DNA of 44,583 nt from Gemmatimonadota bacterium (GTDB lineage: Bacteria > Gemmatimonadota > Gemmatimonadetes > Gemmatimonadales > GWC2-71-9): NCBI GenBank assembly GCA_003221895.1, contig QHUJ01000147.1, positions 1-44,583 of the forward strand, read 5' to 3'. Positions within the stretch are counted from its first letter, which is position 1, and every line of letters starts with the position of its first letter. Both the position numbers and the translations under genes were made by a program. Below the pieces are notes generated by a model. It saw only the letters and a program-made list of their open reading frames with translations. It did no database searches and was not told where the DNA came from. Below are positions 25,071 through 42,904 of this stretch, piece after piece.

Positions 25071-25623
25071 CGCGGGCCCGCTCCTGATCGAGCAGGCGAA
25101 TCGAGTGATTCCAGCTGTTGTTCGATACTCCCTGATAACTCAGGGTCAGCTCCTCGCGCAGGCTGATGCCGGGGTCGAATAAATAGATCGCAGCCGCCTG
25201 CTGGCGCGCGTCGAGCTGGTAGGAGCTCCACGTGGGAGAGAGCGGGACGATCGCGACGGGGCGAAACAGGCGGCCGCGGGTCGTAATGTTCAGGTCTTCA
25301 GGATTGAACCGGGCCTGCTGTACGACGCCGAGGAATGTCACCATCACCAGGGTCGCCTTATCGGTCGCGGCGCGGGACGCCGCTTCCGCGATGTCGTTGT
25401 AGCGGCTCTTCACCAGCGCATGCAGCGAGCGATACGTGTCGGGCGCGAGCAGACGGATGACCTGCTCGTCCAGCGGCAAGACCTGAACCTCGATCGTGCC
25501 CGTCGAGAAGCGGACGACGATGTCGTCGCGGCGTAAGGAGCCGTAACCGGCCGGGATCGTATCCTGCGAGGCCAGTCTGCACGTCGGCACGACTGCGAGC
25601 AGCAGCAGTATCGTGAGTCTCAC
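25036..25623 (-). CDS. Secreted protein of unknown function
   Basis: I do not recognise a family. The 195-residue product starts with a signal peptide (LTILLLLAVVPTC, cleavage near residue 20) and continues as a mixed alpha/beta domain with strands such as DDIVVRFSTGTIEVQVLPL and TLVMVTFLGVVQQARF. A Cys in the hydrophobic stretch does not fit a good lipobox, so a soluble periplasmic form is more likely. The GTG start overlaps the engB stop as GTGA, making it the last gene of the tig-clpP-clpX-engB run. The 35-bp tail-to-tail overlap with the ApbE-like gene is modest and tolerable. Confidence 0.7.
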   Translation of the reverse strand: MRLTILLLLAVVPTCRLASQDTIPAGYGSLRRDDIVVRFSTGTIEVQVLPLDEQVIRLLAPDTYRSLHALVKSRYNDIAEAASRAATDKATLVMVTFLGVVQQARFNPEDLNITTRGRLFRPVAIVPLSPTWSSYQLDARQQAAAIYLFDPGISLREELTLSYQGVSNNSWNHSIRLLDQERARVKARAQTPPGL

Positions 25624-26194
25624 GCGGCCGCCGTGATCAGCCCTGCGATCGCTTCCCTCAGGTCCGCGATTCCCTCGCCGGTGACAGCGCTCGTAACTAG
25701 TATCTGATCCTCCGGCAGGCCCAAATCGTCGCGCAGCTCGCGTTCCCGTGTGCGTCGCTCTGCCTGGGAGAGCTTGTCGCTCTTCGTGAGCGCCGCGAGG
25801 ACGTGCGTTTCCCCCTCCACAAGTACGTCCTGCATGGCCCGGTCGTCAACCGAAGGGGAGTGGCGCATGTCCAGCAGCCATACCACACCGCGGAGGCGCT
25901 CGCGCACCAGCGCGTGCTTGACCAGGCCGCGGTAGGCGGCGCGCTGCGCTTTGCCCGCACGCGCGTAGCCATATCCCGGCAGGTCCAGCAGGTAATGCGA
26001 CGCGTCGATCAGAAAGACGTTGAGTGCCCGCGTCTTCCCCGGCGTCGCGGACGTTTTGGCAATGCGCCGCCCCACCAGCGCATTGAGCAAAGACGACTTG
26101 CCCACGTTGGAGCGGCCGATGAATGCGACTTCGGGGAGTGGGGGATCGAGCACTGCGTCGGCTCGCGGGAAGGAGCCGATGTACTTGGGATCCG

Positions 26195-29381: not shown

Positions 29382-29397
29382 ATCACCTGAGGAAGCG

Positions 29398-29419
29398 CTG
29401 GGCCGCCTCCGGCGGCCAG
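29398..29419 (-). terminator. Hairpin directly behind tRNA-Leu
   Basis: GGCCGCC and GGCGGCC separated by TCC (29401-29417), extended by CTG/CAG with one bulged base, form a strong GC hairpin beginning right after the tRNA 3' end. A T tract is lacking, so it may define 3' processing or factor-dependent termination rather than a classic intrinsic terminator. Confidence 0.45.
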
Positions 29420-29501
29420 TGCGACCGGAGGGACTCGAACCCCCACGGGTTGCCCCACCAGCTCCTAAGGCTGGCGCGTCTGCCAATTCCGCCACGGTCG
29501 C
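29420..29501 (-). tRNA. tRNA-Leu (anticodon UAG)
   Basis: Read on the minus strand, a complete 82-nt cloverleaf is seen: a 7-bp acceptor stem (GCGACCG with CGGTCGC), a D arm with GAATTGGCAGA loop, and anticodon stem CCAGC/GCTGG with loop CTTAGGA, so the anticodon is TAG. A long 13-nt variable arm (GGG/CCC stem) is characteristic of Leu, Ser and Tyr tRNAs. The T arm has loop TTCGAGT. The discriminator base is A, as required for tRNA-Leu. The CCA end is not encoded and must be added after transcription. Confidence 0.97.
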
Positions 29502-33656: not shown

Positions 33657-33965
33657 ATGAGCGAGCAGGGTCAAGCACACGCGACGACCGGGACCTATCT
33701 GCGCATCGCCGCGATCCTCGTGATGATCACGCTGATCGAGGTCGGCGTGTTCTACGTGCCCGCATTCCAGGCGGTCCTCGTGCCGGTGCTCCTCGTCCTC
33801 TCGGCCGTCAAATTCACGCTGGTCGTGATGTTTTACATGCATCTCAAGTTTGACAACAAGTTCTTTGCATTTCTCTTCGGCGGACCGTTGCTGCTCGGGC
33901 TGGCGGTCGTCGTCAGCCTGCTCTTCATCTTTTATGGAACGGTGCGTCTGCGGACCGGCAGCTGA
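33657..33965 (+). CDS. ctaF: Cytochrome c oxidase subunit IV
   Basis: This is a 102-residue protein with three predicted transmembrane helices (about 14-36, 40-62 and 70-92) and a charged turn MHLKFDNK between the second and third. It matches the CtaF/CyoD-like small subunit of bacterial aa3/caa3 oxidases in length, topology and position directly after subunit III, 10 bp downstream. A 12-bp perfect inverted repeat begins one base after its stop codon. Confidence 0.88.
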   Translation: MSEQGQAHATTGTYLRIAAILVMITLIEVGVFYVPAFQAVLVPVLLVLSAVKFTLVVMFYMHLKFDNKFFAFLFGGPLLLGLAVVVSLLFIFYGTVRLRTGS

Positions 33966-33966
33966 A

Positions 33967-34006
33967 GTCCAATGATCAGTGTCGAATAACCCATTGATCA
34001 TTGGAC
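33967..34006. repeat. Perfect 12-bp inverted repeat behind ctaF
   Basis: GTCCAATGATCA (33967-33978) pairs with TGATCATTGGAC (33995-34006) across a 16-nt loop. The right arm is continuous with the ATTGGAC heptamer array, whose unit is thus also present in inverted form in the left arm. It could attenuate the transcript before ctaG. Confidence 0.85.
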
Positions 34007-34027
34007 ATTGGACATTGGACATTGGAC
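34000..34027 (+). repeat. Heptanucleotide tandem repeat, ATTGGAC x4
   Basis: Four perfect head-to-tail copies of ATTGGAC are followed by a degenerate ATTCCAG. The array contains the only in-frame start codons (TTG at 34001 and 34022) that retain the conserved N-terminus of CtaG, so it forms either the leader or the first codons of that gene. Confidence 0.95.
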
Positions 34028-34867
34028 ATTCCAGCCTGGGATCGTTGGGATCTACACCCGAGCGTGGTGGCAGGGCTCGTCCTCCTGGGCGGGCTTTACG
34101 TCTTTTTAGGGGGTCACAGATCCGCTCGTCGGCACGTCGCAAGCTTCGTCGCTGCATTGCTCGTGCTCGGTGTCGCGTTGAATGGGCCGCTTCATAACCT
34201 CTCTGACACGTATCTCTTCAGCGCCCACATGGCGCAGCACCTGCTGCTGACGCTCGTATTTCCACCATTGCTCCTCTATGGCACCCCGGGTTCGGTCGTC
34301 AGGAAGCTGCTCCGGCCGCGTTGGGTAATGGGACTCGGACGGTTTGTCACGCGGCCGCTGCCCGCCGCGATTCTCTTCACAGCGCCGATCGTGGGCTGGC
34401 ACGTGCCCGCGCTGTACGAAGCCGCGTTGCGCAACCACAACCTGCACATCGTCCAGCATCTCGTATTCCTGACGACCGCCGTCATCATGTGGTGGCCCGT
34501 GCTGTCCCCGGTGCCGGAGCTCCCGCGACTGCCTCACCTGTTGCAGATGCTCTATCTGTTCCTGCTCGGCATCCCGATGTCCATCACGGGGGCGCTGATC
34601 ACGCTGTCGGATCGCGTGCTCTATCCCTTTTATGCCGCCGCGCCACGAGTCGGTGGGTTGTCACCGCTCGACGACCAGCAGATTGGTGGGTTGCTGATGT
34701 GGGTGTTGGGTGGGTTGATGCTGTGGATCGTGATGACCGTTATCTGGTTCCGGTACTCCGTCTGGGACGAGAGAGGCGATGCTGAAACGGGAGTGCCGGT
34801 GGAAGCCTATGGCAATGCGGAAGTCGGAACGCGGAACGCGGAATCGCAGGGTGGGGGTCGAAGCTAG
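34001..34867 (+). CDS. ctaG: Cytochrome c oxidase assembly factor CtaG (caa3_CtaG family)
   Basis: A seven-helix membrane protein, it belongs to the caa3_CtaG family linked to copper delivery and oxidase assembly. The central His-containing motifs FSAHMAQHLLLT, GWHVPALYEAALRN, HIVQHLVF and GIPMSITGALIT are typical. The frame has no ATG start: an upstream TGA at 33995 leaves TTG 34001 or TTG 34022, both inside the ATTGGAC array. TTG 34022 gives MDIPAWDRWDLHPSVV. The last 20 or so residues are encoded by a second heptamer repeat (GCGGAAC-type) and have no conserved character. Both ends of the gene therefore appear to have been remodelled by repeats. Confidence 0.88.
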   Translation: MDIGHWTLDIPAWDRWDLHPSVVAGLVLLGGLYVFLGGHRSARRHVASFVAALLVLGVALNGPLHNLSDTYLFSAHMAQHLLLTLVFPPLLLYGTPGSVVRKLLRPRWVMGLGRFVTRPLPAAILFTAPIVGWHVPALYEAALRNHNLHIVQHLVFLTTAVIMWWPVLSPVPELPRLPHLLQMLYLFLLGIPMSITGALITLSDRVLYPFYAAAPRVGGLSPLDDQQIGGLLMWVLGGLMLWIVMTVIWFRYSVWDERGDAETGVPVEAYGNAEVGTRNAESQGGGRS

Positions 34868-34895
34868 CCTTTCAATTCCGCATTCCGACTTCCGC
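34817..34895. repeat. GCGGAAx heptamer repeats forming an inverted repeat at the ctaG 3' end
   Basis: Copies of a 7-bp unit (GCGGAAG, TCGGAAC, GCGGAAC, GCGGAAT) run through the end of ctaG. Complementary copies follow the stop codon at 34865-34867. The longest perfect arms are GCGGAAGTCGGAA (34817-34829) and TTCCGACTTCCGC (34883-34895). The element sits between two convergent genes, so it could act as a bidirectional transcription barrier. Confidence 0.85.
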
Positions 34896-34903
34896 GTTCC
34901 GAG

Positions 34904-36118: not shown

Positions 36119-36146
36119 GTAGGGGCGCAGCATGCTGCGCCCCTAC
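36119..36146. terminator. Perfect 28-bp palindrome between convergent genes
   Basis: The arm GTAGGGGCGCAGCA is followed at once by its exact reverse complement TGCTGCGCCCCTAC. In RNA it would form a long hairpin on either strand. It lies between the stop at 36113 and the protease stop at 36176 and could end transcription from both sides, although no T tract follows. Confidence 0.6.
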
Positions 36147-36182
36147 AATCCCGTCATTTCGCCCCTACAATCCCGTCATTTC
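36139..36182. repeat. 22-bp tandem duplication at the protease 3' end
   Basis: Two identical 22-bp units, beginning GCCCCTACAATCCCG and ending TCATTTC, lie head to tail at 36139-36160 and 36161-36182. The first overlaps the right arm of the palindrome and the second contains the stop codon and last codon of the protease gene. This looks like a local duplication of the gene end together with the repeat element. Confidence 0.9.
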
Positions 36183-37723
36183 GCGCGCACGCGCACGATG
36201 CGCTGTTGCCAGCCGTCCGGCGTGCTCGAGAGAACCGTCAACGTCACGATCTGCCCGGACTTCACGCCGGACAAGGCCTGCCGCAGCTCCGCGCGCGTCC
36301 GCGTCGGCTCACCGTTCACCTTGAGAATGATGTCCGGATAGCCCTGACTGTCGTCCACCAGGTGCGCATACGACGGTCCATCGGGCGACACCTGGGACAC
36401 GACGAGACCGCCGCCCGAGCGCATGACGGCGCGCAGGCTGGGGTCGCGTGCGTTCTCCTGGGAGAGCGGCTGCACGGAAATGCCGAGCGGCTCCTCCATC
36501 GGAGCGGGATCCCGCCGGTTTGCGCCCTCGTCGGAGTCCGAAATCTCTTCGGGCTCAGCCGATGGCGCCGCTACCAGGCGCACCGGAATCGTTTTACGCA
36601 CGCCACCGCTGCGCACGACACTGACCTGCACGGTCTCGCCCGGCTTCTTGAACCCGACGCGCTGCTGCAGCTGCGCGACCGATTCGATCGACTGTCCGTC
36701 GACCGCGACGATGACGTCACCGGCTTGGATCCCGGCGCGCTTCGCCGGTGAATCATCACCGCTGTAATCGTTGACCACCACACCGTGGATATCCGTCAGC
36801 TTCGCGTCCTCGGCGTCCTCCGGTGTGATGGGGCGTATCGACACGCCGATCACGGCGCGCTCGACGTGTCCGGTCGCGATCAGCTGGGTCATCACGGTGC
36901 GGGCGAGGTTGATCGGGATTGCAAACCCGTACCCGGCATAGAACCCGGTCTCACTGGCGATGGCCGAATTGATGCCGATGACCTCGCCACGCACGTTCAC
37001 GAGCGGCCCGCCCGAGTTTCCAGGATTGATGGCCGCGTCTGTCTGGATGAAATCCTGAATCGCGTAGCGACTCTGATTCAGGCCCGAGAGCAGCCGGCCT
37101 TTGGCACTCACGATTCCCGCTGTCACCGTGAAGGTGAACGCCTCACCCAGCGGGTTACCGATCGCGAGCACCCAGTTGCCGATCTTGGTCGAATCCGCAT
37201 CACCCATGCGCACGGTAGGAAGCCCCGTCGTCTGGATCTTGATCACGGCGACGTCCGTGCTCGGGTCGGTGCCGACCGTTTTCGCGGTGAATTCGCGATT
37301 GTCGTACAGCCGCACGATCACGCGATCGGCGCCCTGCACGACGTGATTGTTGGTGAGGATGTATCCGTCCGGGGAGACGATGAACCCCGACCCCGAGCCC
37401 TGCTCGACCTGGGGGCGGCGCGGGACCTGGAAGAAATCCTCGAATCCCGGCGGCAGGCGGCGGCTCGACACCCGCTCGCGTCGTTCCGACTTGATGAATA
37501 CCACCGCCGGCTTCACATGGTCAGCGACCGAGGCGAAGGCCTCGCCGAGATCCACGGCAGCCTTGGCCTGGGGAACCGGACGATTGGTATCCTGCAGCAC
37601 CGTCCGGATCGCCGCCTCCCCGCGCGTCGGCAGCTTGAAGGCCGAGGCGAATGCGAGGCCGAGCGCAAACGCCATCGCTACCAACGTGCCGAATTTCAAC
37701 CAGTCCCGCGTCTTCACCGACAT
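36176..37723 (-). CDS. Do-family (DegP/HtrA) periplasmic serine protease
   Basis: The 515-residue protein has an N-terminal membrane anchor or signal (LVAMAFALGLAFASAF) and a trypsin-like domain with His in ILTNNHVV, Asp in STDVAVIKI and Ser in NPGNSGGPL. Two PDZ domains follow (about 275-365 and 420-510), the first after HGVVVNDYSGDDSPA and the second after GGLVVSQVSPDGPS. It should degrade or refold misfolded envelope proteins. It begins 12 bp behind dnaK with a GGGGG-type ribosome binding site, an informative pairing that places cytoplasmic and envelope folding-stress functions in one transcript. The last codon lies in a 22-bp tandem duplication. Confidence 0.94.
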   Translation of the reverse strand: MSVKTRDWLKFGTLVAMAFALGLAFASAFKLPTRGEAAIRTVLQDTNRPVPQAKAAVDLGEAFASVADHVKPAVVFIKSERRERVSSRRLPPGFEDFFQVPRRPQVEQGSGSGFIVSPDGYILTNNHVVQGADRVIVRLYDNREFTAKTVGTDPSTDVAVIKIQTTGLPTVRMGDADSTKIGNWVLAIGNPLGEAFTFTVTAGIVSAKGRLLSGLNQSRYAIQDFIQTDAAINPGNSGGPLVNVRGEVIGINSAIASETGFYAGYGFAIPINLARTVMTQLIATGHVERAVIGVSIRPITPEDAEDAKLTDIHGVVVNDYSGDDSPAKRAGIQAGDVIVAVDGQSIESVAQLQQRVGFKKPGETVQVSVVRSGGVRKTIPVRLVAAPSAEPEEISDSDEGANRRDPAPMEEPLGISVQPLSQENARDPSLRAVMRSGGGLVVSQVSPDGPSYAHLVDDSQGYPDIILKVNGEPTRTRAELRQALSGVKSGQIVTLTVLSSTPDGWQQRIVRVRAK

Positions 37724-41295: not shown

Positions 41296-42127
<832 letters not shown>

Positions 42128-42131
<4 letters not shown>

Positions 42132-42904
42132 CCAAACCGTCCCGTGATATACGCCTCCGTCTGCTCCATCTTCGGCTTCGTGAAGATTTCGTCGGTCCGG
42201 CTTACCTCGATCAGGCTGCCGAGGTACATGAAGGCGGTGTAATCCGACACGCGCGCGGCCTGCTGCATGTTGTGCGTCACGATCACGATCGTGTACAGGC
42301 GTTTGAGTGCATGACAGAGCTCTTCGATCCGCAGCGTGCCCGCGGGGTCGAGCGAAGCGGTCGGCTCATCGAGCAACAGAATCTCAGGCCGCGGGGCCAC
42401 GGCGCGAGCAATGCACAGCCGTTGCTGCTGCCCGCCCGACAGCGCGAGTGCGCTCGTCCGCAGGCGATCCTTCACCTCGTCCCACAGGGCAGCCTGCTGC
42501 AACGCGCGCGCGACGGCCTCATCGACATCGTGGTGCGTGCGCTTTCCGTTGACCCGCAGTCCTGCGGCGACGTTGTCGTAGATCGACATCGTCGGGAACG
42601 GCGTGGGCCGTTGAAAGACCATGCCGACTCGGCGCCGCAGCTCGACCGGGTTCACGCCCGGCGCATAGATGTTGATGTCGTCGAGCAGCACTTCGCCCAC
42701 TACGCTCGCGTCCGGGGTGAGCTCGTGCATGCGGTTCAGGCAGCGGAGCAGGGTACTCTTGCCGCACCCGGACGGCCCGATGATCGCGGTGACCGTGTGC
42801 GCCGGAAACAGCAGCGAGACGTCGCGCACCGCGCGATGCTTCCCGAAGAGCGCGGTGAGTTTGACCGTCTCGAGCCGGAGCCGGGTGTTAGCGGACGCTA
42901 CCAT
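42128..42904 (-). CDS. pstB: Phosphate ABC transporter ATPase PstB, first copy
   Basis: The 258-residue ATPase of the Pst high-affinity phosphate importer has Walker A (GPSGCGKST), signature (LSGGQQQR), Walker B ([13 protein letters not shown]) and H-loop ([11 protein letters not shown]), all intact. The PstB features FQRPTPFP and [10 protein letters not shown] are present. Its start overlaps pstA by 17 nt and its stop overlaps the second pstB by 4 nt. The two copies differ in many positions, so this is not a recent duplication. Confidence 0.96.

Follow-up and report, generated by a model that had tools for sequence, protein, structure and literature searches.

The window analysed here is a 44,583-nt stretch from a Gemmatimonadota genome, in which Pfam profiles place the cta neighbours ctaD (COX1), ctaE (COX3), ctaF (COX4_pro) and ctaG (Caa3_CtaG). 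The ctaF ORF, encoding cytochrome c oxidase subunit IV (33657..33965, plus strand; PF03626, E = 9.7e-10), ends with the TGA at 33963-33965 and is followed by ctaG, encoding a Caa3_CtaG assembly factor (34022..34867, plus strand, from its most likely start; PF09678, E = 6e-56). Between the ctaF stop and 34037, where the first conserved Trp codon of CtaG is encoded, there are 71 nt, which consist mostly of repeat. On the plus strand, a hairpin left arm, GTCCAATGATCA (33967..33978), starts 1 nt past the ctaF stop codon and is followed by a centre or loop (33979..33992) and by a right arm composed of ATTGATC, four ATTGGAC units and a terminal ATTC (33993..34031). The ATTGGAC units lie at 34000, 34007, 34014 and 34021, the additional ATTGATC unit at 33993-33999 and an inverted copy at 33967-33973. 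Tandem Repeats Finder reported period 7, 4.6 copies and 100% match for 33999-34030, and the segments 33967-33978 and 33995-34006 form a perfect 12-bp inverted pair; the four perfect units, inverted copy and 12-bp hairpin of the original prediction are thus all present at 33967-34027. Folded alone, 33967-34006 gave -20.7 kcal/mol (z = -6.98; equalled by 0 of 200 shuffles), and the longer segment 33955-34060 gave -40 kcal/mol (z = -3.5; equalled by 1 of 200). A lone ATTGGAC is no rarity: the window has seven, and at least seven were found in 8 of 100 shuffles.

The genome of the window (G000) is a 3.7-Mb draft that is 97% complete; its relatives are all drafts, those that can be named being MAGs, and the nearest of them are Gemmatimonadetes MAGs from about 20-40 cm depth, probably soil. 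In G000, ATTGGACATTGGAC gave 12 matches in 6 places and ATTGRNCATTGRNC, a pattern of two tandem units, gave 58 matches in 16 places, with no match for either reversed control. The original prediction had proposed searching the genome and its relatives for such arrays, and the search revealed a genome-wide heptamer repeat, with at least two tandem 7-bp units in many places of a genome, rather than an array unique to the contig. We call this repeat family A. The two-unit pattern was present in all 10 genomes of the genus (1 to 58 matches each, the single match being in G004) and in 13 of 51 relatives outside it (at most 4 matches each). In a scan of 395 genomes of the phylum, 117 had any match, mostly one or two, and the control often did likewise. 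At least six matches were found in six genomes of the genus (G000, G002, G003, G005, G006 and G008) and in seven outside it (G107, G276, G334, G191, G318, G388 and G363), and the reversed control reached six solely in G162 (18) and G262 (14), of the same order. The control matches in these two genomes read as GTTACNR heptamers, which from their sequence probably represent a separate heptamer family.

The usual form of family A is GAAT(GNYCAAT)n-GATC-(ATTGRNC)mATTC, its words being mainly ATTG[AG][AT]C. We read 63 clusters (12 G000 loci, 38 stretches of six relatives and four ctaG junctions), a sample that scarcely covers G002, G004 and G008 and in which a few clusters may be chance. Both arm word types were present in 45 of the 63, with strict left-to-right order in 38 of these and mixed order in seven, mostly where ATTGATCAAT scored as both types; ten clusters had left words only and eight had right words only. 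At ctaF-ctaG, the array forms the right arm of one copy of the dispersed family A palindrome, and the centre of this copy, which is unlike the usual GATC, is probably a decayed one. Family A is mostly intergenic, as judged by eye from the long ORFs and tRNAs around 15 clusters at the 12 G000 loci, with an exception at the N-terminus of bioY. A tRNA gene was located within 120 nt on either side of 18 of the 63 clusters, a raw count that includes orthologous sites repeatedly; L006, L063, L046 and L011 are examples. Downstream (3') of tRNA-Pro(cgg), family A was found in G000, G003 and G005, octamers in G008, and other sequence in G002, G004, G006, G007 and G009.

The junction between ctaF and ctaG was readable in nine genomes of the genus; in G004, where only 11 nt of contig precede the match, it was not. 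Five of the nine carry the element (G000, G001, G002, G003 and G005, the filled genomes). In the other four (G006, G007, G008 and G009, the empty genomes) a single GTGA serves as both the ctaF stop and the ctaG start, leaving 5 nt between the ctaF stop and the Trp codon and no repeat seed there. The same distance in the filled genomes is 71 nt in G000, 86 in G001, 102 in G002 and 65 in both G003 and G005. Insertion at ctaF-ctaG was not found at the nine next-nearest loci (L022, L023, L025, L136, L138-L141 and L152), and comparison with more distant relatives indicates that the shared GTGA is probably the ancestral state of the junction. The base before the ctaF stop is C instead of G in the filled genomes, and the old GTG start of ctaG has therefore been lost. 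Right-arm words at the junction, with near-matches counted, number 5 in G000, 2 in G001, 5 in G002 and 3 in each of G003 and G005; the copy-number comparison called for earlier, made here between species, thus showed that both the number and the order of units vary.

Where, then, does ctaG begin in the filled genomes? In G000, an in-frame stop for ctaG lies at 33995-33997, within the array region. The first in-frame TTG (34001..34003, plus strand) is 35 nt past the ctaF stop codon, and the second (34022..34024, plus strand), in the final repeat unit, is 5 codons ahead of the conserved Trp; judged from the sequence, the latter is most likely the ctaG start. The claim that these two TTG codons of the array are the sole in-frame starts preserving the conserved CtaG N-terminus was upheld. 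The alternative considered at the outset, a start near GTG 34064, would use the next in-frame start codon of ctaG but is disfavoured, because it would delete the conserved block W..W[DN].H.[ST]V, which is kept in 15 of 16 CtaG sequences (the window and 15 relatives). Tandem ATTGGAC is free of stops in every frame and provides one TTG per frame each 21 nt. In G001, G002, G003 and G005 an ATG in the palindrome centre (TCAATGATC) and a right-arm TTG or GTG are in frame, and ctaG probably starts at this ATG; in G000 the in-frame starts ahead of the Trp are TTG alone, without a centre ATG. All in-frame starts ahead of the Trp lie inside the element in five of the five filled genomes, in agreement with the proposal that the array is the initiation region of ctaG. 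Annotators should be aware that peptides like IGHWTLDIGHW at an N-terminus are repeat words that have been translated.

The filled allele appears to have a history of its own. On ctaG nt 1-276 the filled genomes formed one clade (support 83/95), a moderate support, and the filled group was named after the pattern had been seen. This clade was rejected on ctaE (AU 1.1e-9; four of the five filled genomes, G001 being missing), on ctaF (AU 5.4e-5), on three proteins joined (0.03) and on rpoB (0.0057; four filled genomes against three others, the seven in which rpoB was found), and it was neither recovered nor rejected on the whole of ctaG (AU 0.32) or on its 3' part (0.055). We counted the sites with a base common to all four empty genomes and not shared by four or more of the filled ones. 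There are four such sites in ctaG nt 1-276, all of them perfect and all within the first 35 nt of the conserved core (34037..34071, plus strand); judged against the outgroup, three of the four are derived. The corresponding count for ctaF is one, an imperfect site. Among the 126 possible 5|4 splits, 6 have at least four sites of this kind in the first 60 nt of ctaG. Furthermore, G002 and G009 share about 96% identity in the 2.4 kb that end with ctaF and about 79% directly after the element. That the filled genomes group together solely on 5' ctaG suggests short-tract exchange, and the simplest reading of these sequences would be a single insertion followed by transfer of the filled allele between species on short tracts. 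Convergence under selection is disfavoured as the source of the shared ctaG sites, since a synonymous change (His CAT to CAC) and a two-base Ile-to-Ala change are among them. Contigs end about 290 bp past the element on the ctaG side in G002 and about 320 bp before it on the ctaF side in G001, so chimeric joins are possible in these two; the element of G000 is in mid-contig.

Three more junctions, at bioY and at two sites designated S3 and S4, have in-frame N-terminal arrays at or beside a stop/start overlap, and the arrays therefore recur at overlap junctions. At S3, the upstream stop and the downstream start overlap in five of five genomes read. G009, G002 and G006 carry there an in-frame N-terminal hairpin of the octamer GGCGGTTG in signal-peptide-like coding sequence (L290:17081-17168, L295:9948-10031 and L291:18458-18545, corresponding to window region 25550-25650), and the product is 214 aa with the hairpin, versus 195 in G000 and 192 in G008, in both of which the hairpin is missing and the start and upstream stop share GTGA. 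At S4 (window 42020-42140, minus strand), whose gene, from its motif, looks like one for an ABC transporter ATPase, stop and start overlap in six of six genomes; G000 has an in-frame octamer array just after the ATGA overlap (Tandem Repeats Finder, 42088-42114, 3.4 units), G007 has a different in-frame octamer hairpin in the same slot, and G001, G004, G006 and G008 have neither. The S3 hairpins (G009, G002 and G006) and the S4 hairpin of G007 are in-frame palindromes in coding sequence, as in Rickettsia palindromic elements; in ctaG and bioY, right-arm words are read in frame. The BioY protein of G000 (G000:C16:924; L045, L249) begins with MERALVIGHWTLDI, coded by family A words. These words are degenerate in the G006 and G002 orthologues and absent in G001 (L257), with all of these at one length; bioY was readable in five of ten genomes, and the N-terminus in G004 is shorter and different. 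Since the length is equal without the words, substitution may also create or remove them, and in bioY their gain may not have been by insertion. The C39 and C97 arrays, considered as further N-terminal fusions, were rejected because better-looking starts, judged by eye, lie downstream.

Word hairpins are not confined to family A. At the 3' end of ctaG, a hairpin of GGAANNC words (family B; 34817..34902) has the ctaG stop in its loop. Three tandem GGAANNC units gave 28 matches in G000 and none in the control; family B was found in nine of the ten genomes of the genus, and 18 of 61 genomes had any match, the strongest outside the genus being G019, G028, G034, G020 and G024. With words assigned by eye, as in all reused slots, the 3'-end slot of ctaG holds GGAANNC in G000 and two more distant relatives, GCGAAAT in G006, GTGCGGC in G009 (with a remnant in G001) and GGGGCTC-like words in G005, G007 and, weakly, G003, and it is empty in G008, G004 and three others. 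A TA/TAC duplication is apparent by eye at this junction. Similarly, the spacer (window 29385-29420; L288-L295 in relatives) 3' of a tRNA-Leu (window 29419-29501) holds GTGCGTG in G003, GGGGAAT in G005, GGGGCCT-like words in G006 and G007, CGACGTCT in G009 and other words in G002 and G008, while G000 has a plain small hairpin. Hairpins were surveyed across 192,816 nt, made up of the window plus nine stretches partly syntenic with it, and orthologous places were counted repeatedly. The 10 hairpins scoring at least 15 all had tandem 7- or 8-mers as arms (a period of 14 being taken as two 7s), and five block-shuffled controls gave none at that level; at a score of at least 12 there were 22 hairpins, of which six had no period and two had a period of 6 or 10. 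The ctaF-ctaG hairpin of the window is absent from those scoring at least 13. Elsewhere in the window (36119-36184), a perfect 14-bp palindrome, GTAGGGGCGCAGCATGCTGCGCCCCTAC, precedes 2.1 copies of a 22-bp unit, and a near copy of the palindrome is present in G007 (L288:8176-8203).

Several other origins and roles of the array were weighed. It might have grown in place by slippage from a chance short repeat, without a dispersed history. Slippage of 7-bp units is plausible in general, unit number and order do vary between species at this one junction, and bioY shows that words can appear or vanish without a change in length; nevertheless, identical words are present at 16 places in G000 and in each of the 10 genomes searched in the genus, they share a palindromic grammar with GAAT/ATTC ends, and the empty relatives, with their 5 nt from stop to Trp, contain no seed, which makes local growth very improbable. 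A REPIN-like element moved by a RAYT (a Y1 transposase) would account for short hairpins in many copies, and Y1_Tnp matches over the cut-off were obtained in 28 of 61 genomes searched, including all nine same-genus relatives. We nonetheless find this origin improbable, given that G000, the genome richest in family A, has no Y1_Tnp (PF01797) match in its 97% complete draft, in which a gene may be missing, that none of the five Y1 loci read (L124-L128, of which L127 alone is from the genus) contains a family A tandem pair, and that the arms consist of tandem words with no single conserved REP core; a RAYT link thus gains no support from G000, though it may exist in relatives. One of these loci, L128, has one family B pair. 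A third reading is that the element works in the cta operon as a conserved RNA hairpin, be it a terminator, an RNA-processing signal or an intercistronic regulator, in keeping with the strong folds predicted at four filled junctions (z = -3.5 to -7.8; G000, G001, G002 and G005) and with the nearby tRNA genes of 18 of the 63 clusters. We regard it as unlikely, because the element is missing in four of nine genus genomes, the arms display no pairing or wobble bias, no Rfam family scored over its gathering threshold and no U-tract follows the hairpin. The junction does not have the GC-rich stem and U run of an intrinsic terminator, its stem being GTCCAATGATCA and the sequence after the array CCAGCCTGGGATC. 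Among 88 pairs of facing arm words at 34 centres, 23 matched, against a shuffle mean of 18.3 (equalled in 190 of 2000 shuffles), and G.U and A.C pairs were equally frequent (17 each); there is thus no sign of selection for RNA pairing. The Rfam search returned three microRNA families, all below the gathering score, on the family B hairpin.

The original prediction had also held that changes in copy number, 7 bp being no multiple of 3, would shift the available starts and the hairpin. This was borne out in part: such changes would alter the hairpin, the distance from the ctaF stop and the extra upstream TTG, but they would not switch start or frame, because TTG 34022 belongs to the last unit, downstream of the others, and its distance to ctaG cannot be shifted by copy number. 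We therefore give hardly any credence to a phase-variable contingency locus in which ATTGGAC copy number turns CtaG on and off. Although the unit length and the variation in unit number between species would suit such a switch, the last-unit TTG remains in frame at any copy number, all frames receive starts, and the frame is kept in five of five filled species. A source of starts that tolerates changes of frame describes the array better than a switch does. In a model with a ribosome on the ctaF stop of G000, predicted openness rose from 0.00 to 0.41 at TTG 34022 and from 0.34 to 0.81 at TTG 34001. Melting of the hairpin by the terminating ctaF ribosome was rejected as a general coupling mechanism, since one of two starts was helped in G003 and no clear help was seen in G001, G002 and G005. 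A broader reading of the hairpins, which we hold as tentative and rather doubtful, is that an unrecognised process builds and spreads hairpins of 7- or 8-bp words, reusing slots and acting repeatedly at operon stop/start overlaps; by such repeated insertion it would give genes new N-termini and starts.

The STRR sequences of cyanobacteria are short tandem heptamers dispersed in the genome. The resemblance to them noted originally holds by kind alone, both being dispersed heptamers; the STRR sequences belong to a different phylum. Rickettsia palindromic elements are inserted in frame, and to our knowledge they are neither tandem heptamers nor known to have replaced a start. They are described as being read as part of proteins (PMC2635572), and family A is like them in being palindromic and read within proteins. 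The GGGNATC and GGGGA(C/T)T heptamers of Xanthomonas and Nostoc are dispersed, have variable positions, are over-represented in intergenic regions and in part form inverted pairs (Rehm et al. 2015, PMC4692102); the same paper cites three tandem heptanucleotides in Calothrix and reports heptamer over-representation in many bacterial genomes without explanation. Family A resembles these heptamers in its dispersed, partly inverted 7-bp units with variable positions; however, the Xanthomonas/Nostoc words are G-quadruplex sequences, whereas those of family A have no G-runs, commonly form both arms (45 of 63 clusters) and enter coding N-termini. In Beggiatoaceae, where canonical ribosome binding sites are rare, TAACTGA arrays lie near start codons in a patchy set of taxa and are described as having no evident spreading mechanism (MacGregor 2015, PMC4679880); their units are repeated directly and in most cases precede the start, whereas family A is a hairpin with starts within its units. 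Geobacter metallireducens has an element with four tandem heptamers in 49 places within and between genes, and five tandem MTYCTGA heptamers, drawn folding back, at 15 sites (PMC2700814); these have other words and are considered putatively regulatory, and the passages describing them contain no empty-site comparison. REPINs are short hairpins of inverted repeats that occur outside genes in many copies (PMC3116915), from which family A differs in its tandem-word arms, the lack of a RAYT match in G000 and the absence of any compensatory change seen. Neither heptamer repeats of this type in Gemmatimonadetes nor a replaced start codon was found among the open-access matches listed. We regard the family A hairpin as a new variant of a kind already known, the dispersed heptamers.

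Taken together, these data make it likely, in our judgement, that a dispersed heptamer hairpin inserted at the ctaF/ctaG overlap took over the start of ctaG and that the resulting allele spread between species. According to this explanation, a short non-coding hairpin of tandem 7-bp words would have entered the stop/start overlap in part of the genus and pushed out the old GTG start, so that CtaG would now be initiated within the element, at the right-arm TTG in G000 and at the centre ATG in the four others. The insertion would be tolerated by ctaG because the right-arm words supply starts and ATTGGAC adds no stops. The local trees indicate that the filled allele probably moved between species by a short recombination tract, and coupling to ctaF translation is probably weaker in the filled genomes, or may have given way to re-initiation. 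Filled and empty alleles of one junction coexist in one genus, and it should therefore be possible to measure there directly how a heptamer hairpin is gained, lost and spread and what it costs. Our study points to a simple way in which the start of an operon gene may be captured by a non-coding repeat.
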